From: a virus
IMG/VR virus record: IMGVR_UViG_3300004770_000875
Coordinates: 1 to 30,520 of that record
Strand: one strand, 5' to 3'
Length of the DNA stretch: 30,520 nucleotides
A program made the translations under genes and the position numbers. Of this stretch, positions 1 to 24,579 are shown piece after piece; the first letter of the stretch is position 1; each line of letters begins with the position of its first letter. The notes beneath the pieces were generated by a model. It worked only from the letters and a program-made list of their open reading frames with translations. It was not told the origin of the DNA and did not search any database.

Positions 1-780
1 TTGGTGTGCCTGAATCTCGGCCTGGATGTCAATTTTCTGTAGCTCTTCGATTCCTGTCTGTAACTTCTCTGTCTCTTCTGCATGTTTATTAATCCATAGA
101 GTTTGTCTACGCTTTACAGCTTCAATTTGTTCTTCTATACGCTTGTTAGCATCTCCCACGGCCTTAATACGAAACTCTTCTTGTGTAATAGCGTCTTTGG
201 TTGCTTTGTTTTGTTCTTTTAGTTTATCGGCTTTTTCACTTAATAAGGTGATTCCTAGTAATTGTTCAATAATACCACGCTGATCGTTAGCTTTGAGTGC
301 AAGGAATGGTTCTGTATAAGTGTTAAGTGCTACGATATGCTTAAACATGTCGTGGCTCATGCCAAGCATACGTTCTATTTCTGCTTGTGTTTCACGGCTG
401 TCGCCTTGAGCATCATCGGTAATTTCTTTTTCGCTATCGCCTACAAAAAACTTCATTATGTTAGGCTTACGTCCACGTTCAATTCGATAGTTAATGCCGT
501 CTTTTTCAAAATCAATACAGACCATCATACCTTTTTGGTTAGTCTTATTGATTAAATTATCTTTTTTAATGTTTGTTAGTGCGTTGCCGTATAAAGCAAA
601 ACTCAGAGCATTAATAATAGTAGTCTTACCTGTTCCATTACGTGCCCCACTATCATCGCCTCCAAGGTCCAAGTTTTCGCCTAAGACAAGTGTAAGGTCA
701 TTACGATCAAAGTTAACGGCCTGGGTAGTATTACCCACACTCATGAAGTTTTTAACGGTTAGGTCTTTTATTTTAAACAT
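1..780 (-). CDS. 46: gp46-like recombination endonuclease subunit (SbcC/Rad50-type ATPase), N-terminal part
   Basis: This is the first 260 codons of an ORF that continues past the left edge, so there is no stop in the window. The start MFKIKDLTVKNFMSVGN is the usual gp46/SbcC beginning, and a Walker A motif GARNGTGKTT lies at residues 45-54, followed by INALSFALYG. Residues from about 180 on (KADKLKEQNKATKDA, then many E, K and Q) look like the start of the long coiled coil of Rad50/SbcC proteins. In T4, gp46 pairs with the nuclease gp47 to resect DNA ends for recombination-dependent replication and host DNA breakdown. The ATG at 778-780 overlaps the end of the upstream hydrolase gene by 8 bases (ATGTTTAA), so translation is probably coupled. 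The partner gp47 is two genes upstream rather than adjacent. The identification is from motifs and context. Confidence 0.93.
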   Translation of the reverse strand, partial: MFKIKDLTVKNFMSVGNTTQAVNFDRNDLTLVLGENLDLGGDDSGARNGTGKTTIINALSFALYGNALTNIKKDNLINKTNQKGMMVCIDFEKDGINYRIERGRKPNIMKFFVGDSEKEITDDAQGDSRETQAEIERMLGMSHDMFKHIVALNTYTEPFLALKANDQRGIIEQLLGITLLSEKADKLKEQNKATKDAITQEEFRIKAVGDANKRIEEQIEAVKRRQTLWINKHAEETEKLQTGIEELQKIDIQAEIQAHQ

Positions 781-1498
781 TTTTTAATTGTACACTATTA
801 TAGAGCATATTTGCAATATATAGTTGTCCTTCTTCGTTCGGGTGAAAAAAATACATTGGTATTTGATTTGTTAATTGACGTAAATAAAATTCATTCCATT
901 TATAAAAACAATCGGTATTAATTTGTTTGATATAAAATTGTATCTCATTGTATTCTAATAGAATTTGATCATCATCCATAATATCAAAATTTATTAATTT
1001 TTTAGTAGTATCAATAAAATCTGGCCACGGGGTTAACCACTTTTTTAAATTGTTCTCGTGTCCGTTTATCATTAAATATTTTTTGTTATTTGCTTTGAGT
1101 ACAGTTTGCAGTTGTATAATTTGCTGTAGCCAAAGTTTAAAAGCATATAACCTATTATGCCACTGTTGATATAGTGTGCGCCCCCAAATTTTATAGTAAT
1201 CTTCTTTGCCAAAGAGTTCGTGTATAAGTTGGGGATTAAAATGCACATCAAAGTTATTGTCAGATTTAAAAAATGTAAACTTAGCAGTATTAGTCCACAC
1301 TATTATGTATAGATCAAAGTCATCTTGTAGATGTTTTATAGTTCTATACACAAAATGCGAATTTGATCCTGTTCTATACGAATCATTGTATACTTCGGCA
1401 TTTAACTGCCGTCCCAATACTGCCGGCCAAGAATCTTCGGCTGGATTTGTTAATTCATCTCCATATACCCAACTGTCACCAGTAACATAAATTTTCAT
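773..1498 (-). CDS. SGNH/GDSL-type hydrolase-like protein inserted between genes 47 and 46
   Basis: A 241-residue protein begins MKIYVTGDSWVYGDEL. The GDSW block with candidate nucleophile Ser9 is at residues 7-10, G44 could be the block II glycine, WTN with N70 the block III asparagine, and HPNEEG with H219 lies near the end. Known SGNH esterases carry D-x-x-H in block V; here position 216 is Tyr, so any catalysis would rest on a Ser-His dyad. The start at 1498 was chosen because its ATGA overlaps the stop of the ligase gene; an in-frame ATG 21 bases upstream is less likely. No signal peptide is seen, so it should act in the cytoplasm or virion. Family members cleave acyl or acetyl esters, but the substrate is unknown. 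By hand count of five 60-base lines it is about 30% GC, lower than gp46 (about 41%), which hints at separate acquisition. Confidence 0.72.
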   Translation of the reverse strand: MKIYVTGDSWVYGDELTNPAEDSWPAVLGRQLNAEVYNDSYRTGSNSHFVYRTIKHLQDDFDLYIIVWTNTAKFTFFKSDNNFDVHFNPQLIHELFGKEDYYKIWGRTLYQQWHNRLYAFKLWLQQIIQLQTVLKANNKKYLMINGHENNLKKWLTPWPDFIDTTKKLINFDIMDDDQILLEYNEIQFYIKQINTDCFYKWNEFYLRQLTNQIPMYFFHPNEEGQLYIANMLYNSVQLKNV

Positions 1499-2577
1499 GA
1501 AAATTCTTTCTCTAACCAAGTTCTAGAAATTTTTCCGGATGGACTAACAGGAATACTTTCAACACATTCTAATAATCTTGGTTTACATTGAGGTCCTAGC
1601 CCAAGTAAATATTTTCTTATATCTTCAGGATCACAAGTACCTACATATAAACACTTAACTGCATCGTTGCCAAATACTACACAATCTGCTAGCCCCGGAA
1701 TATGGTTTAGTAACTGTGTTTCTAAACTAACAGGATTTAATTTTTTACCTTTAACATTAATTTGATCTCTGTGCCTGCCAAGTACCCGATAGTATCCAGC
1801 CTCATCCTGTTCTACCAGGTCTCCGGTATTATACCAATTGCTGGTAAACAAAGTAGGACCTTGGATGTATAGTTGTCCGTCAACAATGTCGGCTTCAATC
1901 CCGTCGGGTAACCCAACAGTCCCCATTCTGTGCGGTCCGTTTAAGGGATTAGTAAAGCAATGGCTAAGTGCTTCGGTCATGCCAAATGCTTCTATAATAG
2001 GTACATTAAATTTATGTTTAAGTTTTGTAAACAATTCGTCGGGCAAACTGGCACTAGCACCGCGAATAAAACGTAAGTGATCAAACGTAAATTGAGCAAC
2101 AACTCGCAATACATCGGGTACAGCAGTAATAAACGTCGGACTACAACTAGACATAGTGCGTATGTCTTTTATAGGTACATAGTATGTTTCACATCCGGCT
2201 AATTGTGTAGCCCAATAGAAGCCTTGCCCATGTGCATGCCATAAACTCATAATGCTCACATAACGATCATTAGCAGTTATATTGTAGGAGTTACAGATCT
2301 TTTGAGCTAAAATATCTAATTGTTCTTGACTAAAGCTACAAAACTTGCTATCGCCGGTGGTGCCAGACGTATACCAAAGCAGTCGCTCATTTGGGTAGTC
2401 GCCCCCGTTGCGTATTTGATCACCATTTTGAGTTATTAGTAAACTATAATCAGATTTAGCCAAGAGGTATTCATTTCGACTAACTGGCGCTTCTGGATTA
2501 ATAATCATGATGCTATAGTCGTTGAGTTGGGGAATATAATCCTGCGGGTTACTTACACATAGTACCGCTCGTTTCAT
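1495..2577 (-). CDS. AMP-forming acyl/aryl ligase of the ANL superfamily (compact form)
   Basis: A 360-residue adenylating enzyme with the ANL core motifs in order: P-loop YTSGTTGDSK at 69-78 (A3), EAFGMTEA at 196-203 (A5), YNTGD at 249-253 (A7), GRHRDQINVKGKK from 267 (A8 hinge) and PVSPSGKISR at 343-352 with the catalytic lysine K349 (A10). All key residues are present, so an active enzyme that makes an acyl-AMP from a carboxylate and ATP is expected. It is short: family members are usually 500 residues or more, and here only about 68 residues precede the P-loop, so most of the N-terminal subdomain is missing. No carrier-protein domain is attached. It overlaps gp47 upstream and the SGNH hydrolase downstream by ATGA, so the three are co-translated. 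Substrate and acyl acceptor are not visible. Sampled GC is about 38%. Confidence 0.88.
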   Translation of the reverse strand: MKRAVLCVSNPQDYIPQLNDYSIMIINPEAPVSRNEYLLAKSDYSLLITQNGDQIRNGGDYPNERLLWYTSGTTGDSKFCSFSQEQLDILAQKICNSYNITANDRYVSIMSLWHAHGQGFYWATQLAGCETYYVPIKDIRTMSSCSPTFITAVPDVLRVVAQFTFDHLRFIRGASASLPDELFTKLKHKFNVPIIEAFGMTEALSHCFTNPLNGPHRMGTVGLPDGIEADIVDGQLYIQGPTLFTSNWYNTGDLVEQDEAGYYRVLGRHRDQINVKGKKLNPVSLETQLLNHIPGLADCVVFGNDAVKCLYVGTCDPEDIRKYLLGLGPQCKPRLLECVESIPVSPSGKISRTWLEKEFS

Positions 2578-3593
2578 AGATTCCTATAGATATCTAACAA
2601 TAACGCTGGGTTATATTGATTACTATCGATTGTGTTTAATTGGCTGTAGACAATTTGATCCACAGACTCAAATTCAATATTGCCTTGTATTTCATAATCA
2701 GTTAAATCGGTTACCTTAGCAGGGATAAGTGTAATCTCACGTAACTTGTAAGTATCAATAAATGTTTCTTTGATAAACGTAGCCTCTTCGTAGCTAATAT
2801 CGATATCCAAGTTAACACGTACATGCATATTAGGTTTAAGCATAACTTCTGTGTGTTTAAGTACATCGGCTAGGCCAAACACACGATACATAGGTTGATC
2901 GGGCCAAGCATGATATTCTGGTTCCTTGTCCCACTCTAATATCATCATGCCACGATCATCGTCGCCGGCATCGGCATAGTTATGTGGGAAACAGTTGCCT
3001 AAGTAAGTAATATTTCCTTTGGTCTGGCGCTTATGGAAATGTCCCGAGAAAACATGTTCGAAACCTTGCATATCATTCTTAGGATCCACTTCACCGTGGT
3101 CTGGCATAGCAACCATAGCATTCATTAAATATCCAGGCAATTCAAAATGCCCAAACAAGTATTTGCCTTTTAGTTTTTTGAGTCGCTTAAAGTCATCGCC
3201 TACGAGCCAAGGTGCAATAGTAACATCGCCAAAGCTAGTCCAATCATTACATATATGGATGTTCTTGAGGTGCTTTGCCCATTCAACACTTTGTACGTCT
3301 CTCTTATCACGATAATACAAGTCGTGATTGCCAGGAATAAAGTAAGTATTTTCAAAGTTATCATTTAAGTGCTCCAGGGCTTGTAAGCTATATTGTAGCG
3401 TAAGAATATTGATACTAGCACGATTGTTATGCCAATCACCAAGAAAGAGTGCGGTATCGCACCCTTCTTCTTTGGCTTTAGTAGTTGCCCATTTAACAAA
3501 GTTTAAACAATCCTCGTTGTGTAAAGTACTGTTTGATTTTAACCCAAAGTGAATGTCAGTAAAGACCGCGGCCTTTTTGAATAGATTAGTCAT
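2574..3593 (-). CDS. 47: gp47-like recombination endonuclease subunit (SbcD/Mre11-type nuclease)
   Basis: A 339-residue calcineurin-like phosphoesterase with the full metal-binding set: DIH at 13-15, GDWHN at 52-56, GNHD at 88-91, GHFE at 148-151 and SGHFHKR from 183. This pattern and the length match T4 gp47, the nuclease partner of gp46, which resects DNA ends during recombination and replication. The C-terminal third lacks catalytic motifs and would hold the capping and partner-binding parts. It is the first gene of the four-gene minus-strand operon and ends in an ATGA overlap with the acyl ligase. No ribosome binding site precedes its ATG; a sigma70-like -10 box ends only 7 bases before it, so the mRNA may begin at or next to the start codon. 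No other start is possible without losing the DIH motif. Confidence 0.95.
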   Translation of the reverse strand: MTNLFKKAAVFTDIHFGLKSNSTLHNEDCLNFVKWATTKAKEEGCDTALFLGDWHNNRASINILTLQYSLQALEHLNDNFENTYFIPGNHDLYYRDKRDVQSVEWAKHLKNIHICNDWTSFGDVTIAPWLVGDDFKRLKKLKGKYLFGHFELPGYLMNAMVAMPDHGEVDPKNDMQGFEHVFSGHFHKRQTKGNITYLGNCFPHNYADAGDDDRGMMILEWDKEPEYHAWPDQPMYRVFGLADVLKHTEVMLKPNMHVRVNLDIDISYEEATFIKETFIDTYKLREITLIPAKVTDLTDYEIQGNIEFESVDQIVYSQLNTIDSNQYNPALLLDIYRNL

Positions 3594-3640: not shown

Positions 3641-4549
3641 TCAATCGTCGTCCCCTCCACCACCAAAATTGCCACTACTAGCACTATGGTTGGCACTACC
3701 ACCTTGTCCTTGGCGTGTGTAACTTGGGGTTAGGTTGTTCATTTCTAAAATGTCGTCACGTAAATTTTGGTTACGCTTTTCAATATTTAGAACACGAGTG
3801 AATGAGTTTGTAATTGCTGCTGTATAGTAAGCAAATGGGTTTTGTGATTTAAACTCATCAAACTGTAGACCAATTTGACTTAACTGTAGCAATGCTTGGC
3901 TACGCATTTCGTCGTTATATGTATATCCACGCCAGTTTGAACGTGTAGCATAACGCTCACATAACTTAATAAACATATGAGCTAGCTTAGGAGTCATTTT
4001 GCCGTGTTCGCGACTAAACTCACCTTTTTTAAGTGTGCCCTTCCAGTGGCTCTTGCCTACTATAACAGGCTCACCTGCTTCGTCAACTTTATAATGAAAG
4101 AACGGTGGAAAGTTACATTTAACATATTTGGTATTACCAGCAATGTCTAATTCATTATCGTCGTATTCACTGCGCACAGGACCGTCATCGTCTAGCTCGT
4201 AGGCTTTAACAGCGGCCTTGCGTGATTTAACATCGTCGATTGGAATATGTTCCCATGTCATTACACGGAATACAACATCGGTGTCAGCGACGTCTTTAAG
4301 TTTAATTTCAAACTCATCTAATTTACGTTTTGTACCATCACTAGTAGCGGCTTCGTGCGCTAGTTTAGCTAACCGGACAGCACGATCTTTACGAGCTTGT
4401 AATATGTTCTTTTTGTTTATTTTACTAGCGTCGGGCAGGATCATATCATAATCTGCGACATCTGGGCTAGTGTAATAGCAATAGGTGTTTTTGCTTTTGT
4501 GAATCTCTTTTAGAATATCTTTATTATTTAGATAATTGTTACGAGCCAT
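3641..4549 (-). CDS. 55: gp55-like late-transcription sigma factor, enlarged
   Basis: A 302-residue protein whose two ends match T4 gp55 (185 residues), the sigma factor that directs host RNA polymerase to TATAAATA late promoters. NNYLNNKDILKEI (4-16) corresponds to the gp55 N-terminus. Residues about 190-265 (KLCERYATRSNWRGYT, SQNPFAYYTAAITNSFTRVL, EKRNQNLRD) match its sigma region 2-like core. Between them lies an extra stretch of about 165 residues, which includes a Lys/Arg-rich helix near 50-75 and an acidic patch at 119-135. The tail is Gly/Ser-rich and ends GGGGDDD; no SLDFLYE-like sequence, which in T4 binds the sliding clamp gp45, is visible. The start is supported by AAAGGA about 11 bases upstream. 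It is divergent from the structural block whose upstream regions carry late-type boxes. Confidence 0.82.
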   Translation of the reverse strand: MARNNYLNNKDILKEIHKSKNTYCYYTSPDVADYDMILPDASKINKKNILQARKDRAVRLAKLAHEAATSDGTKRKLDEFEIKLKDVADTDVVFRVMTWEHIPIDDVKSRKAAVKAYELDDDGPVRSEYDDNELDIAGNTKYVKCNFPPFFHYKVDEAGEPVIVGKSHWKGTLKKGEFSREHGKMTPKLAHMFIKLCERYATRSNWRGYTYNDEMRSQALLQLSQIGLQFDEFKSQNPFAYYTAAITNSFTRVLNIEKRNQNLRDDILEMNNLTPSYTRQGQGGSANHSASSGNFGGGGDDD

Positions 4550-14000: not shown

Positions 14001-14077
14001 TAGACAACATCGATATTATTAGTGCCGTCACAGCCGCACAACTTAATCTTGGAAATAACATAATAGGTACATATTAA
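11063..14077 (+). CDS. 6: Baseplate wedge protein gp6-like, enlarged
   Basis: A 1004-residue homologue of T4 gp6 (660 residues), which dimerises to form the inner ring of the baseplate with gp25, gp53 and gp7. The N-terminus is conserved: LLVNQDWTKVYQSF (10-23), YLALIDMIAFLGQSLSFRTD (61-80), NARENFIDTAQRRDSILKLA (82-101). GEDYNIFP is at 432-439. The C-terminal part (FQVVINPAVSLTPNEVKTQV, NWNFGDTFYFSELAAYLH) matches the gp6 end. The extra length lies mostly in the middle (roughly 110-410 and 480-720), which is rich in Asn, Thr and Ser and beta-like. Its stop overlaps the gp7 start by one base (TAATG), so the two are coupled. Confidence 0.92.
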   Translation: MAQTTRQTNLLVNQDWTKVYQSFTNADFTSYDFETLRNSMINYLKNYYPDTFNDFLESSEYLALIDMIAFLGQSLSFRTDLNARENFIDTAQRRDSILKLARMLAYNPTRTQSASGLLKFDSVSTTESITDSSGINLSNSTIYWNDLTNNNWLEQFTTIINATLNTGQAVGKPANSQVINGIQTDEYSISLNNNSLPVAPFTSPIQTTPVTFEAVSATTSGQTYIYENPPVLANKFNILYRNDNNGNSSNNTGFFVYFKQGSLQATNFTVQNAIPNNLVPVNSNNINNSDHWLYGLNVSNGIQTVWTQVPALNGVNVVYNSSTDKNLYQIATRNSDQVTLVFGDGSFSNVPQGSFRFYYRTSNGLAYTITPDDLAAVTIAFPYISSSGSVETLTVVASLKYTVTNATAAQSLQSIKTYAPQQYYTQNRMITGEDYNIFPLTTFTSIQKVKAVNRTSSGVSPYLDSLDPTGSFSSTNIFCDDGYISANTTIGSDTFSFLTTNDIYSAIYNNIIPIVSSPEMVNYYYANYERYTPTHSNVTWVQTGNSTSSSYGNLTYNGNVINVGLVASGNLKYVSAGASLQFLTNINANATTFYSTVTSTVGNTQTYFGMNVPTGSIVKTIIPTFKNDFSSALISTIATQVSAKVNFGLTYDQANQVWTNIPPANIGTDTTWLLKFTYTAGLYNIQYKKLTYIFGSASETKFYYDPSVKVYDSVIGANISDIVKILKINTAPGHTYQLDNDIVWNIYNVITDADGYVQTGNVLVSSPQTQMLGVPDNPDLFTTVVDGNSYRDSLYFQYKHNSPSRNRINPTPVNIVDLYVLTADYATSYVNWLRDTTGSLTEPVAPTTSSLEIAYSTLDNFKPVSDTIIYNSAKFKPLFGAKADPSLQARFQVVINPAVSLTPNEVKTQVINAINAYFDVNNWNFGDTFYFSELAAYLHTTLAPNIASVLIVPVDDTLVFGNYFQINAEPWEIITSSATVDNIDIISAVTAAQLNLGNNIIGTY

Positions 14078-17000
14078 TGGCCGTAACTAATACTTTAAAT
14101 TTATTACCAGAACCGTTTAGATCGGTTACTAACCAACGCTTCCTTGGCGCCACTATGGATCAATTGGTTACTGATGCTGCCAATGTCCCTGTTAATGGAT
14201 ATATTGGCCGTACATTTGCTCCTACCTATAAACTAGGTGACAACTATGTACCTGAACCAACTACTAATAGAGCAAATTATCAGCTTGAACCAAGCGTGGT
14301 TATTCGTGATGATAATGGCGACGTAATACATAACAGTGAATACATTGACTTATTACAAAGTATTAGCAATGCCGGTAATACCTCAACTAATCAACAAAGA
14401 TTATTTGGTACACAGAGTTATAACTATGATGGTCATTTTGACTACGATAAGTTTGTAAACTATCATAATTACCATTGGTTACCTAACGGTCCTGCAAGCG
14501 TCACAGTTACATCTAGCAAGACGCCAATGACTGCTGATTATACTGTAACACGAAATACCGCAGTAGGCGGCTATACATTCAGTGGACTTGGTGGTCATCC
14601 TGATCAACAGATAACCTTAGTTCGTGGAGGCACCTATACATTTACCGTTGATCAACTTGGTAACAAATTTTGGATTCAAAGTTTGCCTGGGGTCGATGGT
14701 GTTGATGTTGCTATACCAACGGTAAACACACGCGGCGTATATGGTGTTGAAAACAATGGCACCGATCTTGGTGTTGTAAAATTCACAGTACCTTTAAAAT
14801 CGTCACAAGATTTTTATATAGCTATGTCAACTCCTGTTGGGGCTAATAATGTAAATGCAGCGGTAACATTTAAGTATAGCGATATTCAAAATTCTTTATT
14901 AAGCGATTTTCTTGGTCGATTCCCTGAGGGTCTAGACGGCATCACTAATCAGTTACAAGGTAAAACATTTATCTTTATTGGGAATGACACCAACATGGCT
15001 GACTGGGAAGCACCAACTGGATTTGATAGTGTAACTGGCGCATATGATACTGTTACCAATACTCCTGTGCCAGTAGTTACTCGTCCGAGTGTATGGCAAG
15101 TTAATTTAGTACCTAGCGGATCTGATTATGTAATTCAAATCCTGCCAATGGTTACAATTACACCACAACAGCCTAAGGTGTTTATTACATCTGGTAAAAC
15201 GTATGCAGCTAATCAATTTTGGTTAGATTCAAATTATAATTATCAACAAGTGCCATTGATTACCGCCACAGCAGATTATCTATACTATCAAGATAGTAGC
15301 AATCCTGAGTTTGTGGGCGAAATAAAATTAGTTGATAACGTAAGCACTCCAATTGATATTGAAAATGACATCATTGGAATGACAGGCTACACAAGCCCAA
15401 CCGGAGTAATTTTTACCAACGGGCTAAAAGTTCGTTTCGATACATTAGTAACTCCTGACACCTATGCTAATAATGAATATTATGTAGAAGGCGTTGGCGT
15501 AGGAATTATGTTAGTTCCAGTTGCACAATTAGTTGTGCCGGAATCTTTTGGTGGACACATTAGTACTACTCCAGATTACATTACTATTAATCGCAGTAGT
15601 CAAGACCGTAATCCTTGGACTCGTAGTAATCGTTGGTTCCATAAAGATGTATTAGAAGCCACAGCTACTTACAATCAATCTAGCGTAGATTACGGCCCTA
15701 ATATTTTTGGCCGTCGTGCTATCATCGAATTTGAACCCAATTTACAATTATATAACTTTGGCAAACACGCCAAGAATACAGTTGACTTAATTACCTTTGC
15801 GTCAACTGATGCGTTTGTTGAAATCGAAGGCCCACAGACCTATCCAGTAAATAAGACCATAGATGGTGTAACATTAACACAGGATATGCGTGTAATCTTT
15901 GCCAATGACTATGACAAATTAATTGAAAACAAAGTATGGCAAGTAGATTTTCAAACTATTAACAGCGAAGTATTTGTAAGGCTACTTGAAACAACAGATG
16001 ATCCTGTTGTTGCTGGTGAGTGCGTAACTGTTACGCAAGGTACTACTAATGCTGGTAAAACTTTTTGGTTTGATGGAACCAATTGGCACGATAGTCAAGT
16101 AAAATCTACAGTTCAACAAGCACCATTATTTGATTTAGTTGATTCCGACGGATATAGTTTTGCTGATGCAACTATGTACCCTAATTCAACTTTTGCTGGT
16201 ACCAAAATATTTGGATATCCGATGGTTTTGGGTACCAATGACCCGGTACTTGGATTTCCGTTGGCATACCAAAACTTTAATAATATTGGTGATATTGTTT
16301 TTCAAGATTACTATATTTCTGATCAGTTTACCTATACAACAAATATCACAACTAGCAACACCTCAACATTAAATTGTAGTGCTGGCTATATTTTAAAAAA
16401 TTCTAGTCTAACCGATACTATAAAATTAAACAACTGGACACCCAATTTAGAAACATTGGAACAATATCAGGTTATTACTAAATTCTACGAAGGGTATCAA
16501 GTTCCTATCAACGGAACAAATTACACATTTGTACAAATTGATGTATTGCCAAGAGATTCAGCAACTGTTCCGCATTTAAAAGTTTACCTAAACAATACAC
16601 TACTAAATCCCTACACCGACTTAGTTACTACAGCCGATTCCAGTGGTAATACCATCTTGGGTATAAGCTGGGTGGGAATTTATCCAGTGGTGGCATTAAA
16701 AAATACCCCAAGACTTGGCGATAAGATCGATGTTAAGGTATTAAGCGATTCGATTAGCGAACTTGGATTTTATGAAATACCAAGTAACCTTGACTTTAAT
16801 CCATTAAATCAAAACTTTCCAACAGTTAAGACCAACGTTGGTTTAGTGCCTACTGCTATTACTTTAGGACAACTTAGAACACACTATAACAAACTAATAG
16901 AAAATACTACAATAAGCCCTGCTACGGCTGTACCTAATCAGGATCGCTACTTAAAAGCACAAGGCGGAACACTATTACAACATAGTAGCCCAGTTGTTTA

Positions 17001-20000
17001 TGGTATGACCTTCTTAACTGATCCTAAAGTTAGTTTTGTTGATGGTATTACATTAGCAAGACAAGAATATACAAGATTTAAAAATAAGTTTTTAAGTTTA
17101 TGCGAAAGCCTACGTACACTAGACTATACAAACCCACAATCTGGTGTAGATACAATATTACAAAATATTAATAGTGTTAAAAATTCTAGTTTCCCGTGGT
17201 ACTATAGCGACATGGTGCCGCAAGGCAATAATTATAATGAAATTGTTTATCCAGTTTTAAATGCTCGCCAGACTGCATATGAAATTACTAGCATTTTTAA
17301 TATTGCAAAATTAAGCAATCGTGCTGTATTGGTATATCATAATGGCATTCAATTAATAGCCAACAACAATGAATACTATTATGATCAAAGCACTCCCAGA
17401 ATTGTAATTAATGTTCCTTTAGCAGTAGGCGATACTATTACTATACGTGATTACTTGAATACAGACGGAAACTACATTCCAGAAACCCCGGTTAAGTTAG
17501 GATTAGCTCAGGCATATTCTCCGGCAAAGTATTTAGATACAACATATCAAACACCTATTATGGTTATTCGTGGACACGATGGTAGTATTACCCCTGCATT
17601 TGGAGACTTCCGCGACGACTATCTATTAGAACTTGAAAAACGGATCTACAATAACATTAAAGTTAATTACAATTCGTTAAACATTTTAAATCAATACAAT
17701 ACTATTCCTGGTCGTTTTCGGTCAATTGATTATAGTTTAGCAGATTGGGATCAACTACTTACAAAGAATTTTCTACAATGGGTAGGTAGTAACAATATTG
17801 ACTATACAACCAACACATGGTTTGATGCTAATAATCCTTGGACATGGAACTACAATCAATTTACTGATGTAGTAGATGGTAGTTACCTACAAGGCTCTTG
17901 GCGTGCCGTTTACAAATACTGGTTTGACACAGACCAGCCACACTTAGCACCTTGGGAAATGTTAGGCTTTGTTGAAATGCCAGACTGGTGGGAAACACGC
18001 TACGGTCCAGCACCATATACTAGCGGCAATACAACTCTATGGGAAGACTTAGAAGCAGGTTATATTTGGAACAGCAATGATAGTTTGGCCTATACCAACA
18101 CACAATTTGCTCGCCCTGGCCTACTTAACTTTATTCCTGTAGACCCTGCGGGCAATTTGTTAAATCCAGTAGATGCACATTTAGTACGTCAAATGAATAC
18201 GGTATCGGCAAGTAATTCCTTCCAAGTTGGTCATCAAGGTCCTGTTGAAACCGCATGGCGTCGTAGTAGTGACTACTTATATGCTGTGCAACAAGCACTG
18301 GCATTAGCACGTCCGGCTGAATATTTTAGTACACAAATTGACCTAAGTAGATTTTATAAAAATCCCGTCACCGGCCAATTTACTGATGTAATTAATCAAA
18401 AAATATCGCCTAGCTTGTTGGTAGTTAACGGTGATACTAAAACTGTACCCGGGACTACATTACGTACAGCTGGATATCTAAACTGGATTACAGACTACAT
18501 TAAAAACTTTGGTATGGATCCTGTTACTAAAGTTGAAAGTTATTTTAAGAATTTTAATGTACAGTTAGCTTACCGTGTTGGTGGATTCACAGATCAAAAT
18601 TTAATTACTGTGAAAGCAGAACAGACAAGTCCCGGCAGTACTAATGCTAGTGTTATCATTCCTAATGAAAATTACACAGTATATCTAAACAAGTCAGTTC
18701 CTGTTAATAAAATTTCATATAGTGCGGTAATTGTATCAAGGACTGAAACTGGTTATAGCGTAGCAGGATACGATACTACAAATCCATATTTTGTTATTGA
18801 GCCCAGTGTAGCAAATAATCAATCTACTACATTAACAGTAAACAACTTGACAGTAAAACTATATCAAAAGAGTAGTAAAGAAACTGTTTCAATACCTTAT
18901 GGTACTACGTTTACCAGTGTACAACAAGTTTCCGATTTCTTAATTAGTTATCAACGTCATTTGGTTAACCAGGGATTTAAATTTGAACAGTTTGATACAG
19001 AGTTAGAAATGACCCGCGACTGGACGTTGAGCATCAACGAATTTTTATTCTGGGCACAACAAGGTTGGAACGCAGGCGTATTAATTGTACTAAATCCAAT
19101 TAAAGATACCCTTGATGTACAAACTATTGGCAATACAGTAGATGAAATTACAAATTATCCTAACGGCAGTCGACTACTAGATGTAAACTTTAGACCAATT
19201 AAGAATAACAATTTTAATATTTTACGTTCAGATTATCCTGGCAAGAATCAAACGCAGATAACCACAGTTGATGGATTAAGCACTATTGCATTTGCTGAGT
19301 TACATCTAGTGCAGTTTGAAACTACATTAATTTTTGATAACGTAGATAACTTTGGCGACATACTATACATTCCTGAACAAGGCACACGCCAGTATCGTTT
19401 AAAACTAACTGGTGTAAAAACTGGCTTCTGGGACGGTGCATTAAGTGCGGCTGGATATATCTACAGTAATCCAGTTATCAATGTATGGCAACCTAATACA
19501 GATTATAAGCAAGGTGATATTGTTTCTTACAATAATTCTTACTATACTGCGCCCAATGACATTGTAGCTAACTTAGCATTTAAATTAAGTCAGTGGACAC
19601 AGATAAGTTTATCTGCGCTACAAACTGGCTTATTACCTAGCTTTGGCCACAATGCACAAGTCTTTGAAAACATTTATGATATTGATAATCCGCCACAGGA
19701 CAAAAACTATCAATTGTTTAGCTCTGGCTTAATTGGATTCCGTGAGCGCCCATTTTTAAGTAATTTGGGAATTGATATCTCTACACAGACTAAGTTCTAT
19801 CAAGGATATATCAAACAAAAAGGTACACAAAATGCTATTACAGCATTAACTTCTGCTACCTTTGACACAGTTAATAGTACTATTAACACCTACGAAGAAT
19901 GGGCATTCCAAGTTGGCCGCTATGGGGATATTGATAATAACCAATATACAGAGTTTGTACTTGATCAAAGTGTATTCTTAACTAACCCTGTAGCATTTAC

Positions 20001-23000
20001 TTTAACTGATAATTATGATACTGGTAATATCATTGTTAATCTAGCAGTGACTGGTAGTAACACAACATCTAATGTTTATAACGCTAGTAATATCGCTAGC
20101 ACAGTGACTTCTATTTACAATGATAGAACACAAAGCTCATATACAACAGACGTACCAAGTTGCGGTTATGTAAATCTTGCCGATATTGATTATCAAATAT
20201 TTGATATTGCTAAAATTACTCAAGTTCCAGCCCTAACAGAAGGTAAAAAACTTTGGGTAGCTAAAGATTTTAACTCTGGATGGAATGTTTATAGAACTGC
20301 CAATACTGGTGTTATAGCAACAACCCTTAATTATACTTTAGACAATTATGCTCAGTTGGTATTTAATTCTAGTCATGGATTAAATGCCGGAGACTATTTT
20401 GTATTACAAAACTTTAATACTAGTTACAATGGTATGTATCAAGTTAATGCGGTCAATGACTCTACAAGCATTAAGATTATTATACCTTCTAAGACAGCAT
20501 TAGTTACTGCTCAAGGAAAAATAACGGGCATTGGATCAGTTTTTAAACTTGATTCAATGGTAATTGATACATACAGTCAAATTGGGTTTATCACACCAAC
20601 GGCTGGCTGGATTGCCACTGACAGAGTATGGGTAAACACCGACACACAACCTGGCGCAACTGGCTGGGCAGTATACACATATGATGGTGCCACATGGTCA
20701 AGAACACGTCAAGAACAACCCCGGGTTGATATCACAAGTATTAACAGAACATTTATCTATAACAAAAATAACAATGTTATCTTGGCTGCACTCGATTACA
20801 TCGATCCAGCAAAAGGTAAAGTATTAAATACGGTGGGAGCCGACATTGACTTCCGATTAACACGCGATCCTGCACTATATAATGCCGGAAACCTTACAGT
20901 ATATTTAGATCATCATTGGGGACCACAACAAGTTGGTAAGATCTGGTGGAACTTAGATGCTGTTCGTTATATTGACTACGAACAAGACAAATTAATTTAT
21001 AGAATGAACCATTGGGGCGACGCTTTCCCTGGTAGTAACATTTTAGTTTATGAATGGGTTGAAAGTCCAGTTCTACCTAGCCAATATCTTTCTGTAGTAG
21101 GCGATGGTATTCCGTTACATAACGATGACTCTGCTTATAGTACATATGGTACTGTTGGACCAACCGGTGCTGTAACTGCTAATTACTATTTCTGGGTAAT
21201 TGGTAAGACAAGTATTAATACACAAGCTGGAAAATCAAACAGCGTATATGGTATTACTACCGCTATTGTTAATCCTCAAGCACAAGGTATTCCCTATACT
21301 ACAGTATTGCGCAACGATACCGTTGCATTATATAATGTTAATAACTCTTTAATTGGTACAAGTAGCATACTACATCTTGGTAGTCGTAGTACTGATGCTG
21401 GCCTAATACATAGTGAATATGCATTGGTGCAAGAAGGTAGTCCTGCAAGTATTTTACCTCCAGTTATCAAGCGCAAATTAATAGACAGTCTTGCTGGACA
21501 AGATGGCGCAGGCAATGCAGTACCAGATCCTACATTAACACCAGCTCAAGCATATGGTATTAGTATTCGTCCACGTCAGAGTTTGTTTATTAATCGTAAC
21601 TTGGCATTAACCAATTACTTAACTATAGTTAATAATAATTTATTGAGTTATCCTGTAGTTGAACGTAAGTTATTAACTGTACTAAACAGCGAAGAGTCTG
21701 TACCTCATACAGATTCTGGATTATATAGTTTAATAGTTGATACTCGTGCTGAATTGAATTATGTAGATACCGTGCCATTAAGCATAGGATATCAAGTTTT
21801 AGTTGATGCCGACGAAACCAACCTCGGCAAGTGGGCCATTTATTCTTGGTCTGGTGATGCGTGGACTTTATATCAATTACAAAGCTACAAAACAAATTTA
21901 TATTGGTCAAAAGTTGATTGGTATCAACCCGGTTACGACTATACTGTGGCACCCAATGTTACTGTAACTAATCGTCTTGAATTTGGTAAACTAACCTTAG
22001 CGGCTAATACTTACGTTAAAGTATTAAACAACGGTAGTAATCAATTTGAAGTTTACTACATTGACAATAACTTAAATCAAAATTTAGTTGGTATACAAAA
22101 CGGTACACTACAAATTAATACAGGCACAATTCCTGCACTAGAGCTAAGACAGATTTTAACAGCCGTGCAAAATGAAATCTTAGTTGACGATTTAGCCACC
22201 AAGTATAATCAATTATTCTTTACAATGGTTAAGTATGCATTGTCTGAACAAAAGAATATTGAATGGGCATTTAAAACTAGTTTCTTGAGTGCAACACAGT
22301 ATATTCGCGCACTAGCACAGTTCCCAAGTTACATTGCCGATAACCAAGACTATTATCTTGACTACATTAACGAAATAAAACCATATAGAACCACAGTTCG
22401 TGAGTTTGTTGTTGATTATCAAGGTCTTGATACTTATGGAAGTGATGCTACCGACTTCGATTTGCCGCCATATTATGATGCTAACGTAGGATACTACCGC
22501 AGTCCAAATGGTGAACAACCATACGATGCTACTACATTAAGTAGCGGAGTATACAGTCAATGGAATAACAATTACACATATCAAGTAGTTGATGTTATGA
22601 TAGAACGTCCCGGGACAGGTTATACAATGGTACCACAAGTGGTCATTGCGGGGGATAGTGGCACAGGTGCTGCTGGTTATGCTACGCTAGATGGTTACGG
22701 CGGAATTGCCAGTGTTATTATTACTAATCCTGGTAGTGGCTATACAACTGCCCCTGCGGTTACAATCAATGGTGTTGGCACTGGAGCAACTGCACGTGCC
22801 GTACTACGCAATGTGTTTGATGGTAATAACACTGGACACAATGTGATTAGAAGTATTCAAACTACAATAAAATTTGACCGGGTTGGATATACGGCCGCTA
22901 ATACTTTTGTATTTTGGAACACAATCACCTCGGCTAATATTGGACAAATCATTCCACCTGATACAATACTTGTTCTAGACAGTAAGTTTTATCGTTTAGA

Positions 23001-24579
23001 TACAGATTACACAGTTGATTCTGGTATAACATTCCCTGTTACTGATATTACACAAGTTTACGCTGGTGACTTTGATAATGCCAATGATCGTATTGTTGCT
23101 TACCGCGGCAATATTGACCTTACCTTAACGCAATCTGGATTAAACTATCCAGGGGTTATTGTAGACGGTAATACATTTACTGGCAATGTGTATGATAGTG
23201 TAATACAAAGCCGCTACACTGACAGTCTTGGGGTTAATCCAAGTGATATTATTGTTGATGGCGGCGAGTACGTAGATCGTTTTGAAAGTTATGCTCCGGA
23301 AGAGTTTGTTCCTGGGCGTATGTACGACAGTTTAAATCTAACAGTTCAAGATACTGACCACTTGGCATTCAGATTATTTGAAGATATGAATACGTTCTAT
23401 AACAGTTATAGAATTACTTCGTCTAATACTACGGTATTAACATCAAATTTATATTTAACTGATACTTCAATACTGGTTGACAATGCCGCAGTATTACCAT
23501 TACCGTCTCCCACACAGAATCAACCTGGTGTAGTTTTCATTAACGGCGAAAAAATTGTTTATTGGAGAAATTATGCCCTTGAGCATAAAATTGGGTGGTC
23601 GGCAAATACTGTAATTGCCACACATAGTTTAATAACCAACTCTGGTAATTTATATCTGACTACTGGTAATGTTTATGGTGCTTACTTTGCTAATGTAGCG
23701 TCAAATGTTACGCAGGTGTCGGCTAATACCATTGCTCAAATCCGCCGAGCAGTTGATGGAACTAGTCCAGCACCGATGCATCCAATTGGTAGCCAAGTAA
23801 TTGATTCTAGTATACAACAACTAATACCCGGATCTGCTAATAGTAATGTGGTATTATCCCATACCACTGTTTATACAGTAGCAGATAAACCAAGTTTGGG
23901 CGTTGTCTTAACAGGAAACGTAACTGGTAAACTAGGCGACGTAATTACTCAAACACAAACAGTTGATGCATGGCAAGCAAATACAAATATCGCTGTAGGT
24001 CAATTAACATATTACAGTGGTAATAGTTATACTGTTACCGGTAATGTATACGGAGTGACATTTAGTAGTATATCTAGTAATGTTGCGTTAACATTTGCTG
24101 GAAACACAAGCAATATATCTACAATGATGTTACTAGAAACGGTAACAGACACTAAATTAATTCCAGTTATATTGCTCAATGGTAATATTGCCGGATCACC
24201 GGTTAGATACGACTCTGGAACAGTTGTAGGAACAACTGGCACATACGATGCTTTTAGTACTGACCCAGAATATGCTTTTGGACCTGGTGGAATTCCACCA
24301 TACAATACCGCAGTTGAATACTTAGGCGGGGGCGATGGATTTGATAACACCGTCGGAACCGTACATATAAATGGAGTAGATACTGGAGTTTTTGTTACAA
24401 ACTCTTATATACTAGGTAAAGTTAATTCTTCGGCAGAAGTAATATTAAGTACTGGCACACGAGTTACACAGAGCAATGTTTGGTATAGTCCAGGCGTAGG
24501 AACACCGAGCAATGGGTTACCGCTAATAAACAGCAATACCCCAGAAGCAGTATTCTTAAAAGCCAGCAGATACTACTAG
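14077..24579 (+). CDS. 7: Giant gp7-like baseplate wedge protein (3500 residues)
   Basis: One uninterrupted ORF of 10.5 kb. The N-terminus (LLPEPFRSVTNQRFLGATMD, then HFDYDKFVNYHNYHWLPNGP around 117-136) and position after gp6 fit the gp7 family; T4 gp7 is 1032 residues and forms the outer arm of each wedge. Further parts include FWIQSLPGVDG near 200, aromatic wedge-like blocks such as WYYSDMVPQGNN near 1045, INEIKPYRTTVREFVVDYQG near 2763, two GxGY repeats (2844-2920), a block with AYRGNIDLTLTQSGLNYPG and YAPEEFVPGRMYD (about 3008-3088), and two W-x-ANT repeats (3174-3211, 3299-3336). Such large proteins are known from marine T4-like phages; here it may also cover gp8, for which no gene follows. 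No frameshift is seen. Domain borders are estimated. Confidence 0.82.
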   Translation: MAVTNTLNLLPEPFRSVTNQRFLGATMDQLVTDAANVPVNGYIGRTFAPTYKLGDNYVPEPTTNRANYQLEPSVVIRDDNGDVIHNSEYIDLLQSISNAGNTSTNQQRLFGTQSYNYDGHFDYDKFVNYHNYHWLPNGPASVTVTSSKTPMTADYTVTRNTAVGGYTFSGLGGHPDQQITLVRGGTYTFTVDQLGNKFWIQSLPGVDGVDVAIPTVNTRGVYGVENNGTDLGVVKFTVPLKSSQDFYIAMSTPVGANNVNAAVTFKYSDIQNSLLSDFLGRFPEGLDGITNQLQGKTFIFIGNDTNMADWEAPTGFDSVTGAYDTVTNTPVPVVTRPSVWQVNLVPSGSDYVIQILPMVTITPQQPKVFITSGKTYAANQFWLDSNYNYQQVPLITATADYLYYQDSSNPEFVGEIKLVDNVSTPIDIENDIIGMTGYTSPTGVIFTNGLKVRFDTLVTPDTYANNEYYVEGVGVGIMLVPVAQLVVPESFGGHISTTPDYITINRSSQDRNPWTRSNRWFHKDVLEATATYNQSSVDYGPNIFGRRAIIEFEPNLQLYNFGKHAKNTVDLITFASTDAFVEIEGPQTYPVNKTIDGVTLTQDMRVIFANDYDKLIENKVWQVDFQTINSEVFVRLLETTDDPVVAGECVTVTQGTTNAGKTFWFDGTNWHDSQVKSTVQQAPLFDLVDSDGYSFADATMYPNSTFAGTKIFGYPMVLGTNDPVLGFPLAYQNFNNIGDIVFQDYYISDQFTYTTNITTSNTSTLNCSAGYILKNSSLTDTIKLNNWTPNLETLEQYQVITKFYEGYQVPINGTNYTFVQIDVLPRDSATVPHLKVYLNNTLLNPYTDLVTTADSSGNTILGISWVGIYPVVALKNTPRLGDKIDVKVLSDSISELGFYEIPSNLDFNPLNQNFPTVKTNVGLVPTAITLGQLRTHYNKLIENTTISPATAVPNQDRYLKAQGGTLLQHSSPVVYGMTFLTDPKVSFVDGITLARQEYTRFKNKFLSLCESLRTLDYTNPQSGVDTILQNINSVKNSSFPWYYSDMVPQGNNYNEIVYPVLNARQTAYEITSIFNIAKLSNRAVLVYHNGIQLIANNNEYYYDQSTPRIVINVPLAVGDTITIRDYLNTDGNYIPETPVKLGLAQAYSPAKYLDTTYQTPIMVIRGHDGSITPAFGDFRDDYLLELEKRIYNNIKVNYNSLNILNQYNTIPGRFRSIDYSLADWDQLLTKNFLQWVGSNNIDYTTNTWFDANNPWTWNYNQFTDVVDGSYLQGSWRAVYKYWFDTDQPHLAPWEMLGFVEMPDWWETRYGPAPYTSGNTTLWEDLEAGYIWNSNDSLAYTNTQFARPGLLNFIPVDPAGNLLNPVDAHLVRQMNTVSASNSFQVGHQGPVETAWRRSSDYLYAVQQALALARPAEYFSTQIDLSRFYKNPVTGQFTDVINQKISPSLLVVNGDTKTVPGTTLRTAGYLNWITDYIKNFGMDPVTKVESYFKNFNVQLAYRVGGFTDQNLITVKAEQTSPGSTNASVIIPNENYTVYLNKSVPVNKISYSAVIVSRTETGYSVAGYDTTNPYFVIEPSVANNQSTTLTVNNLTVKLYQKSSKETVSIPYGTTFTSVQQVSDFLISYQRHLVNQGFKFEQFDTELEMTRDWTLSINEFLFWAQQGWNAGVLIVLNPIKDTLDVQTIGNTVDEITNYPNGSRLLDVNFRPIKNNNFNILRSDYPGKNQTQITTVDGLSTIAFAELHLVQFETTLIFDNVDNFGDILYIPEQGTRQYRLKLTGVKTGFWDGALSAAGYIYSNPVINVWQPNTDYKQGDIVSYNNSYYTAPNDIVANLAFKLSQWTQISLSALQTGLLPSFGHNAQVFENIYDIDNPPQDKNYQLFSSGLIGFRERPFLSNLGIDISTQTKFYQGYIKQKGTQNAITALTSATFDTVNSTINTYEEWAFQVGRYGDIDNNQYTEFVLDQSVFLTNPVAFTLTDNYDTGNIIVNLAVTGSNTTSNVYNASNIASTVTSIYNDRTQSSYTTDVPSCGYVNLADIDYQIFDIAKITQVPALTEGKKLWVAKDFNSGWNVYRTANTGVIATTLNYTLDNYAQLVFNSSHGLNAGDYFVLQNFNTSYNGMYQVNAVNDSTSIKIIIPSKTALVTAQGKITGIGSVFKLDSMVIDTYSQIGFITPTAGWIATDRVWVNTDTQPGATGWAVYTYDGATWSRTRQEQPRVDITSINRTFIYNKNNNVILAALDYIDPAKGKVLNTVGADIDFRLTRDPALYNAGNLTVYLDHHWGPQQVGKIWWNLDAVRYIDYEQDKLIYRMNHWGDAFPGSNILVYEWVESPVLPSQYLSVVGDGIPLHNDDSAYSTYGTVGPTGAVTANYYFWVIGKTSINTQAGKSNSVYGITTAIVNPQAQGIPYTTVLRNDTVALYNVNNSLIGTSSILHLGSRSTDAGLIHSEYALVQEGSPASILPPVIKRKLIDSLAGQDGAGNAVPDPTLTPAQAYGISIRPRQSLFINRNLALTNYLTIVNNNLLSYPVVERKLLTVLNSEESVPHTDSGLYSLIVDTRAELNYVDTVPLSIGYQVLVDADETNLGKWAIYSWSGDAWTLYQLQSYKTNLYWSKVDWYQPGYDYTVAPNVTVTNRLEFGKLTLAANTYVKVLNNGSNQFEVYYIDNNLNQNLVGIQNGTLQINTGTIPALELRQILTAVQNEILVDDLATKYNQLFFTMVKYALSEQKNIEWAFKTSFLSATQYIRALAQFPSYIADNQDYYLDYINEIKPYRTTVREFVVDYQGLDTYGSDATDFDLPPYYDANVGYYRSPNGEQPYDATTLSSGVYSQWNNNYTYQVVDVMIERPGTGYTMVPQVVIAGDSGTGAAGYATLDGYGGIASVIITNPGSGYTTAPAVTINGVGTGATARAVLRNVFDGNNTGHNVIRSIQTTIKFDRVGYTAANTFVFWNTITSANIGQIIPPDTILVLDSKFYRLDTDYTVDSGITFPVTDITQVYAGDFDNANDRIVAYRGNIDLTLTQSGLNYPGVIVDGNTFTGNVYDSVIQSRYTDSLGVNPSDIIVDGGEYVDRFESYAPEEFVPGRMYDSLNLTVQDTDHLAFRLFEDMNTFYNSYRITSSNTTVLTSNLYLTDTSILVDNAAVLPLPSPTQNQPGVVFINGEKIVYWRNYALEHKIGWSANTVIATHSLITNSGNLYLTTGNVYGAYFANVASNVTQVSANTIAQIRRAVDGTSPAPMHPIGSQVIDSSIQQLIPGSANSNVVLSHTTVYTVADKPSLGVVLTGNVTGKLGDVITQTQTVDAWQANTNIAVGQLTYYSGNSYTVTGNVYGVTFSSISSNVALTFAGNTSNISTMMLLETVTDTKLIPVILLNGNIAGSPVRYDSGTVVGTTGTYDAFSTDPEYAFGPGGIPPYNTAVEYLGGGDGFDNTVGTVHINGVDTGVFVTNSYILGKVNSSAEVILSTGTRVTQSNVWYSPGVGTPSNGLPLINSNTPEAVFLKASRYY
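22606..22836 (+). repeat. Two GxGYxxxPxVxI protein repeats inside gp7-like gene
   Basis: Residues 2845-2857 (PGTGYTMVPQVVI) and 2885-2897 (PGSGYTTAPAVTI) share 8 of 13 positions and are 40 residues apart, each followed by G-rich turns (GDSGTGAAG, GVGTGATARA). This is a beta-repeat style found in adhesins and phage fibres; here it lies between the INEIKPYR block and the C-terminal modules. Confidence 0.7.
23596..23709 (+). repeat. W-x-ANT module, copy 1, in gp7-like protein
   Basis: Residues 3174-3211 begin WSANTVIATHSL and contain SGNLY and TGNVYG. They are identical to copy 2 at 21 of 38 aligned positions. The pattern W..NT....G..YY.G..Y.V resembles small carbohydrate-binding modules of the chitin-binding type, but this is only a visual likeness. 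Confidence 0.65.
23971..24084 (+). repeat. W-x-ANT module, copy 2, in gp7-like protein
   Basis: Residues 3299-3336 begin WQANTNIAVGQLTYYSGN and contain VTGNVYG. A more distant relative, WQPNTDYKQGDIVSYNNSYY, lies at nucleotides about 19486-19545 in the same protein, so the module may occur three times. Confidence 0.65.

Follow-up and report, generated by a model that had tools for sequence, protein, structure and literature searches.

The window, which is the whole 30,520-base virus fragment of IMG/VR record IMGVR_UViG_3300004770_000875, carries a gene for an AMP-forming carboxylate ligase (LIG) and a gene for an SGNH/DUF6071 protein (SGNH) between the recombination nuclease genes gp47 and gp46. 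Taken with its counterparts in related phages, this pair is best read as part of a mobile module, specific to phages, in which a carboxylate is activated and its acyl group transferred, probably to a sugar. In the explanation we prefer, LIG would activate the carboxylate and the acyl group would be passed to a sugar or glycan, with SGNH acting as transferase or esterase; since linkage alone cannot fix the acceptor, this explanation was held at slightly under even odds (roughly 0.47). LIG represents a phage-specific, shortened ligase family that is joined time and again to SGNH, DegT, PglD-like and TctC genes, and no report of such joining was found in the open-licence literature.

The gp47/gp46 junction as a cargo site

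The four ORFs given in a preliminary description of this DNA, with overlaps of 4, 4 and 8 bases, were confirmed and lie on the minus strand (Table 1). The block is read in the order gp55-47-LIG-SGNH-46, with gp55 as its first gene, and the N-terminal 260 aa of gp46 are present, the rest being cut by the window end. The SGNH start was placed at the ATG at 1498, the mechanical ORF beginning at a TTG at 1519. The G+C content of SGNH is 30%, compared to 38% for the window. Promoter and terminator scans gave counts near chance, an Rfam search gave no match, and the PADLOC models (defence and counter-defence) gave no match at E 0.01, absence from a library being no proof. No glycosylation locus is visible within the window. 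The baseplate/tail region contains one 3500-aa ORF (14077-24579).

Table 1. Features of the gp55-gp46 block of the window, and DctP-type genes found near LIG in related loci
Feature	Position	Strand	Match
gp55-type late sigma factor	3641..4549	-	PHROG 12791, 8e-81
gp47 (SbcD-like nuclease subunit), upstream flank of cargo site	2574..3593	-	PHROG 100, 1.6e-61
gp47/LIG overlap, 4 bases, ATGA	2574..2577	-	
LIG, AMP-forming carboxylate ligase, 360 aa	1495..2577	-	Pfam AMP-binding 1.5e-25
LIG/SGNH overlap, 4 bases, ATGA	1495..1498	-	
SGNH/DUF6071 protein, 241 aa	773..1498	-	Pfam DUF6071 8.3e-7
SGNH/gp46 overlap, 8 bases	773..780	-	
gp46 (SbcC-like), downstream flank of cargo site	1..780	-	PHROG 77, 6.4e-57
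DctP-type protein near LIG	L238:8556-9566		
DctP-type protein near LIG	L257:8899-9927		
DctP-type protein near LIG	L055:3574-4572		

By gp47, the isolates closest to the window were jumbo phages, namely PA5oct at 50% identity and Asteriusvirus at 48%; in PA5oct and one Asteriusvirus gp47 directly adjoins gp46, leaving the junction empty. The relatives used for comparison were IMG/VR contigs, some of them 150-357 kb long, whose loci are given L-numbers here. They appear to derive from uncultured freshwater phages, a habitat read from the kind of metagenomes as the contig names carry none, and the host is probably betaproteobacterial. When the 47/46 and 55/47 junctions were surveyed in approximately 80 gp47 relatives, their contents were found to vary widely, from nothing or SGNH alone to radical SAM/SPASM, sulfotransferase-like, methyltransferase-like, LIG2 and endonuclease-like genes. 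L065 is a close relative whose gp47 shares 95% identity with the window copy; there gp46 follows straight after gp47 with a 4-base overlap, and the bases through the ATGA at the gp47 end are identical to those of the window. Occupied and empty sites are therefore both found in close relatives, together with varied inserts, as is expected of mobile cargo. Because the junction is a general cargo site, it gives little information on the function of an insert, and the earlier proposal that coupling to the nuclease is a clue to function or to early timing is not supported. The nuclease junction was accordingly rejected as a sign of a DNA-linked function; the 4-base overlap was also rejected as a sign of coupling, since the empty L065 site has the same overlap. 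The recombination-nuclease junction is a standing cargo site, and serves as a warning against reading function from neighbours.

A NUMOD3 protein, which is homing-endonuclease-like, was found in the same interval in L122, and a homologue of it lies between gp55 and gp47 in L034, the locus that holds the other LIG-SGNH pair. In L129 (720-1548) an SGNH ORF ends in a second gp55 C-terminal tail, beside a putative GIY-YIG endonuclease gene, and this duplicated tail is the scar of an insertion. In L375 (1-2157) SGNH is followed by a second copy of a gp47 C-terminal fragment, then by an HNH-like ORF and by gp46; the HNH call is a reading by eye to which Pfam gave no confirmation. The history of the site looks like endonuclease-associated gene acquisition, and such acquisition and variability at intergenic sites have been discussed for T4-like phages (PMC2993671, PMC2988022). 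Around gp46, genes for radical SAM/SPASM proteins abound, two of the protein clusters having 80 and 40 members (L102:9005-9985, L069:7014-8468).

A profile scan for SGNH identified 76 loci, with 50 clusters (93% identity) at 47/46. SGNH stands alone in 39 of the 50 and is accompanied by LIG in two; three contain SGNH with LIG2, a 500-aa AMP-binding protein, and a 314-aa TctC gene, the remainder being doubles or other mixtures. The preliminary description had counted relatives carrying only one of the two genes against its proposal, and at 47/46 that is indeed the usual state. As SGNH is alone in most of these clusters and ligases are found in few, SGNH is the older resident at 47/46 and the ligases are later arrivals; where it is alone, SGNH either works without LIG there or has a LIG elsewhere in the genome. 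Of 24 long relatives, possibly fragments themselves, only 4 yielded a LIG. The SGNH, LIG2 and TctC genes are operon-like and joined by small overlaps (L355:2680-5833, L357:5001-8147, L360:962-4102). The 314-aa protein of L360 was identified as TctC (7.3e-28) and begins like a signal peptide, and its nearest solved chains were Bug27 and a terephthalate-binding protein. LIG2 is 20% identical to LIG, and a scan with the L360 protein gave matches confined to the same small clade. Other LIG2 relatives at 47/46 (L070:7020-8450, L109:1302-2759, L095:7017-8465, L134:7017-8480) keep the P-loop and have altered TGD and GK motifs; judged from these residues, they may not be ordinary ligases.

The ligase and the SGNH protein

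The motifs WYTSGTTGDSK, AFGMTE, TGD, GRxxDQ and GK are present in LIG, and their cores are invariant or nearly so in an alignment of 29 LIG sequences. Invariant positions (window numbering) were the T70-K78 region, G199-E202, T251-D253, G267-R268, D271 and K349, and the Gly preceding K349 is nearly invariant. LIG thus carries the motifs of ANL (AMP-forming) ligases, namely SGTTG.PK, GMTE, TGD, GR.DD.IK and PxxxGK with the catalytic Lys. The assignment of one gene to carboxylate activation in the preliminary description agrees with the motifs kept here; LIG very probably forms an acyl-adenylate. The complete N-terminal domain of approximately 400 residues is not present, LIG being shortened at its N-terminus, and its profile alignment to 5ie0 spans only residues 138-510 of the solved chain. 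The best folds for the AF2 model of LIG (pLDDT 84) were oxalate-CoA ligases (5ie3, E 8.8e-29), Pcs60 and MatB, in agreement with the sequence profile.

Within the phage family LIG copies were 58-100% identical to that of the window; the cellular matches reached 34% or less, and no genome contig matched above 34% as a cellular source. At E 1e-40, LIG was found in none of 300 genomes from the order of one Alcaligenaceae bin, a search that had no positive control. Ligase matches from the phage collection were considered as close relatives of LIG and rejected, as they were only 20-26% identical and resemble bacterial sequence in records. With synonymous sites near saturation in both comparisons, dN/dS was approximately 0.05 for LIG against L002/L003 and 0.08-0.18 for SGNH; given these low values, both are maintained proteins under purifying selection.

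SGNH scored 29.3 bits in DUF6071 (PF19547) against a curated cut-off of 27, and its relative in L063 scored 49.4. Residues S9, N46 and H219 are invariant in 14 sequences from four SGNH subfamilies, which are mutually related by profile. The block I Ser, the block V His and the alpha/beta/alpha flavodoxin-like fold of SGNH proteins were all found, and the AF2 model (pLDDT 84) matched a GDSL protein and TesA in the PDB at E ~1e-5, with the SsfX3 acyltransferase (3skv) lower in the same fold search at E 0.01. The block III GxND is absent, a W[TS] motif standing in its place, and the conserved Asp three residues before H219 (DxxH) is also absent, so that catalysis is not assured. The earlier reading of this protein as SGNH-like is supported. 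No close relatives of SGNH were found among isolated phages, and nothing on DUF6071, SsfX3 or phage modules of this kind was found in the open-licence literature.

Ligase neighbourhoods and the proposed acyl transfer

From two scans, 130 LIG ORFs were collected and grouped into 61 clusters, 54 of which had two genes on each side. Most LIG genes have a gp43/dsbA-like or GTP cyclohydrolase-like gene beside them. In 49 of the 54 clusters, one or more of SGNH, DegT, NeuD/PglD-like, TctC, DctP and NMO lay within two genes of LIG; taken singly, these were the DegT aminotransferase in 27, SGNH in 18, the PglD-like sugar N-acyltransferase (NeuD) in 14, TctC in 11 and the nitronate-monooxygenase-like flavoprotein (NMO) in 10. 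Linkage was tested by comparing the 179 genes within two of LIG with the 539 genes that lie at least four genes from LIG in those loci (61 clusters). SGNH made up 23 of the near and 15 of the distant genes (Fisher p 1.7e-6), DegT 27 and none (p 1e-17), and TctC 12 and 2 (p 2.4e-6), each p value treating related loci as independent; for NeuD/PglD the counts were 14 and 1, and for NMO 12 and 0. Half of the LIG neighbourhoods contain DegT and most of those are without SGNH, which indicates that SGNH is not obligatory. The DegT proteins near LIG match WbpE, and the NeuD proteins match PglD/VioB. At approximately 200 aa these DegT proteins are about half as long as usual, and they retain the SF...K motif (L031:7197-7814). 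The DctP-type solute-binding proteins near LIG apparently lack a signal peptide, their sequence beginning with the mature domain, and in L271 two LIG copies in tandem (379 aa and 359 aa) have a DegT gene between them and are followed by SGNH and TctC.

LIG meets a same-strand SGNH end to end at no fewer than three genomic places, involving three SGNH subfamilies and mostly a 4-base overlap. At 47/46 the spacing from LIG to SGNH is -4 in the window and +1 in L262; beside gp43/dsbA, LIG runs into SGNHc at -4 in four clusters, SGNHc at another place has a spacing of +1, and SGNHb at a third place has -4. The linkage of the pair put forward in the preliminary description is therefore rare at 47/46, but recurs at several unrelated places. 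The LIG tree groups the window copy with those of L232/L233 (support 100/99), two loci at the GTP cyclohydrolase site that have no SGNH, and places the other 47/46 LIG (L262) elsewhere; forcing the window and L262 copies together cost 38.6 log units (AU p 0.0235, a modest test). The SGNH proteins of both 47/46 pairs fall in one 100/100 clade with that of L083, which has no adjacent LIG. As these LIGs are not sisters while their SGNHs form a single clade, either LIG was gained at 47/46 on two occasions by one SGNH lineage, or an exchange of LIG took place there; the trees would look no different had homologous recombination replaced LIG. The LIG tree requires a minimum of 10 changes in the SGNH neighbour.

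It has to be asked whether LIG and SGNH are simply unrelated cargo sharing a tolerated insertion site, as the preliminary description had offered in the alternative; the site would be exposed to homing endonucleases and the two proteins would act in different processes. The very diverse genes at the gp55/47/46 junctions, the homing-endonuclease-like genes in the same intervals (L122, L034), the recombination scars (the L129 gp55 tail and the L375 gp47 fragment) and SGNH alone as the rule at 47/46 would all fit, and this does explain the location. It does not account for the pairing of LIG with different SGNH subfamilies at several unrelated places, or for two ligase families having joined the same SGNH family, and we regard it as unlikely, while the strongest competitor. 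Repeated pairing of LIG with a hydrolase-like partner suggests instead that an acyl group is attached or removed during infection.

In the explanation that we prefer, the window shows one configuration of the gp47/gp46 cargo site in phages related to PA5oct and Asteriusvirus, where the SGNH/DUF6071 gene was resident first and the ligase was inserted later, upstream of it. LIG would activate a carboxylate to the adenylate, followed probably by CoA or by direct transfer, and SGNH may be an acyltransferase or (thio)esterase whose substrate is the activated acyl group or what is made from it. Other SGNH proteins, or possibly the PglD-like N-acyltransferase, would fill this role in related phages, where the amine may come from a DegT-type aminotransferase and the carboxylate may be brought in by a secreted TctC-type binding protein. 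Acylation would probably affect a sugar or glycan, either of the phage or of the infected cell. The presence of another ligase, LIG2, with TctC at the same SGNH site, and of TctC beside LIG elsewhere, was counted in favour of this explanation. Catalysis, the substrate, the use of the LIG product by SGNH and the glycan acceptor are the parts that we infer. A more elaborate version, in which the phage's own secreted TctC captures the carboxylate, LIG activates it, and an exchangeable acyltransferase (SGNH or PglD-like, with the amine from DegT) acylates a surface glycan in the course of infection, for example to keep out other phages, is doubtful.

The neighbours of LIG point in two directions, TctC to carboxylate uptake and the WbpE- and PglD-like proteins to amino sugar formation and N-acylation. 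Followed alone, the first leads to catabolic auxiliary metabolism, in which TctC would take up an environmental organic acid, LIG would make its CoA thioester for host carbon metabolism, and SGNH would be a TesA-like thioesterase balancing the CoA pool. TctC or DctP does lie beside LIG in many loci and TctC accompanies LIG2-SGNH at 47/46, the nearest solved enzymes to LIG are oxalate- and malonyl-CoA ligases, and the SGNH model is closest to TesA-type GDSL proteins; however, the commonest neighbours, the WbpE-like DegT and the PglD-like acyltransferase, belong to sugar decoration, and genes for a decarboxylase, a CoA-transferase or ring cleavage were not recognised beside LIG, so that we consider this improbable. 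Sites near gp43, dsbA-like, GTP cyclohydrolase-like and gp46/47 genes could also suggest that LIG and SGNH acylate or deacylate a hypermodified nucleobase of phage DNA, but those positions vary freely, the linked enzymes are of sugar type, and no base-modification gene is consistently linked with LIG, which makes this very improbable. Least probable of all is a small natural-product or peptide-tailoring pathway drawing on the radical-SAM/SPASM, PP-loop-like and hydroxylase-like genes of the same islands: radical SAM/SPASM genes often occupy the same site and PP-loop-like proteins lie within two genes of LIG in three clusters, but the radical SAM genes occur both with and without LIG or SGNH, and no precursor peptide or carrier protein was recognised.

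If acyl transfer by such a module is true, phage cargo would extend beyond stolen central-metabolism genes to a modular set for capturing an organic acid from the water, activating it and joining it to another molecule. The TctC neighbour would offer a direct route to the substrate, as the ligand of the binding protein should equal the substrate of the ligase.

Comparison with known systems

The family of every part is already known, as are cargo sites and auxiliary metabolic genes. LIG shares adenylation motifs, fold, and top profile and structure matches with the ANL oxalate- and malonyl-CoA ligases (AAE3 5ie0/5ie3, Pcs60 8aff, MatB 4fuq), but has 360 aa where they have approximately 510, and is without the first N-terminal region. 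With SGNH/GDSL hydrolases (E. coli TesA; DUF6071) the phage SGNH has in common the fold, the block I Ser, the invariant His and a conserved Gly/Asn near block II, whereas it has W[TS] in place of GxND, lacks the Asp three before the His, and is approximately 60 residues longer than TesA.

Pairs of a ligase and a GDSL acyltransferase are known in antibiotic pathways; SsfL1 and SsfX3 are reportedly a salicylyl ligase and a GDSL salicylyl-acyltransferase of a tetracycline pathway. The preliminary statement that no such system is known was thus too strong as to mechanism, and SsfL1/SsfX3 serves as a precedent for how the phage pair might work, with an acid activated by a ligase and transferred by an SGNH-fold enzyme. 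The PglD/VioB and WbpE-type aminotransferase pathways of O-antigen and protein glycans are represented by homologues that rank with the most frequent enzymes near LIG in related phages, although both homologues are absent from the window and the phage DegT is far from full length.

T4 offers the nearest parallel to the site. The two nuclease genes, taken earlier to be strict neighbours in T4, are separated there by 46.1 and 46.2, with 4-base overlaps to both 46 and 47. The T4 46-46.1-46.2-47 junction thus holds small genes inserted with short overlaps, as at the cargo site described here, but the inserts in the present phages are full metabolic enzymes that change between relatives.
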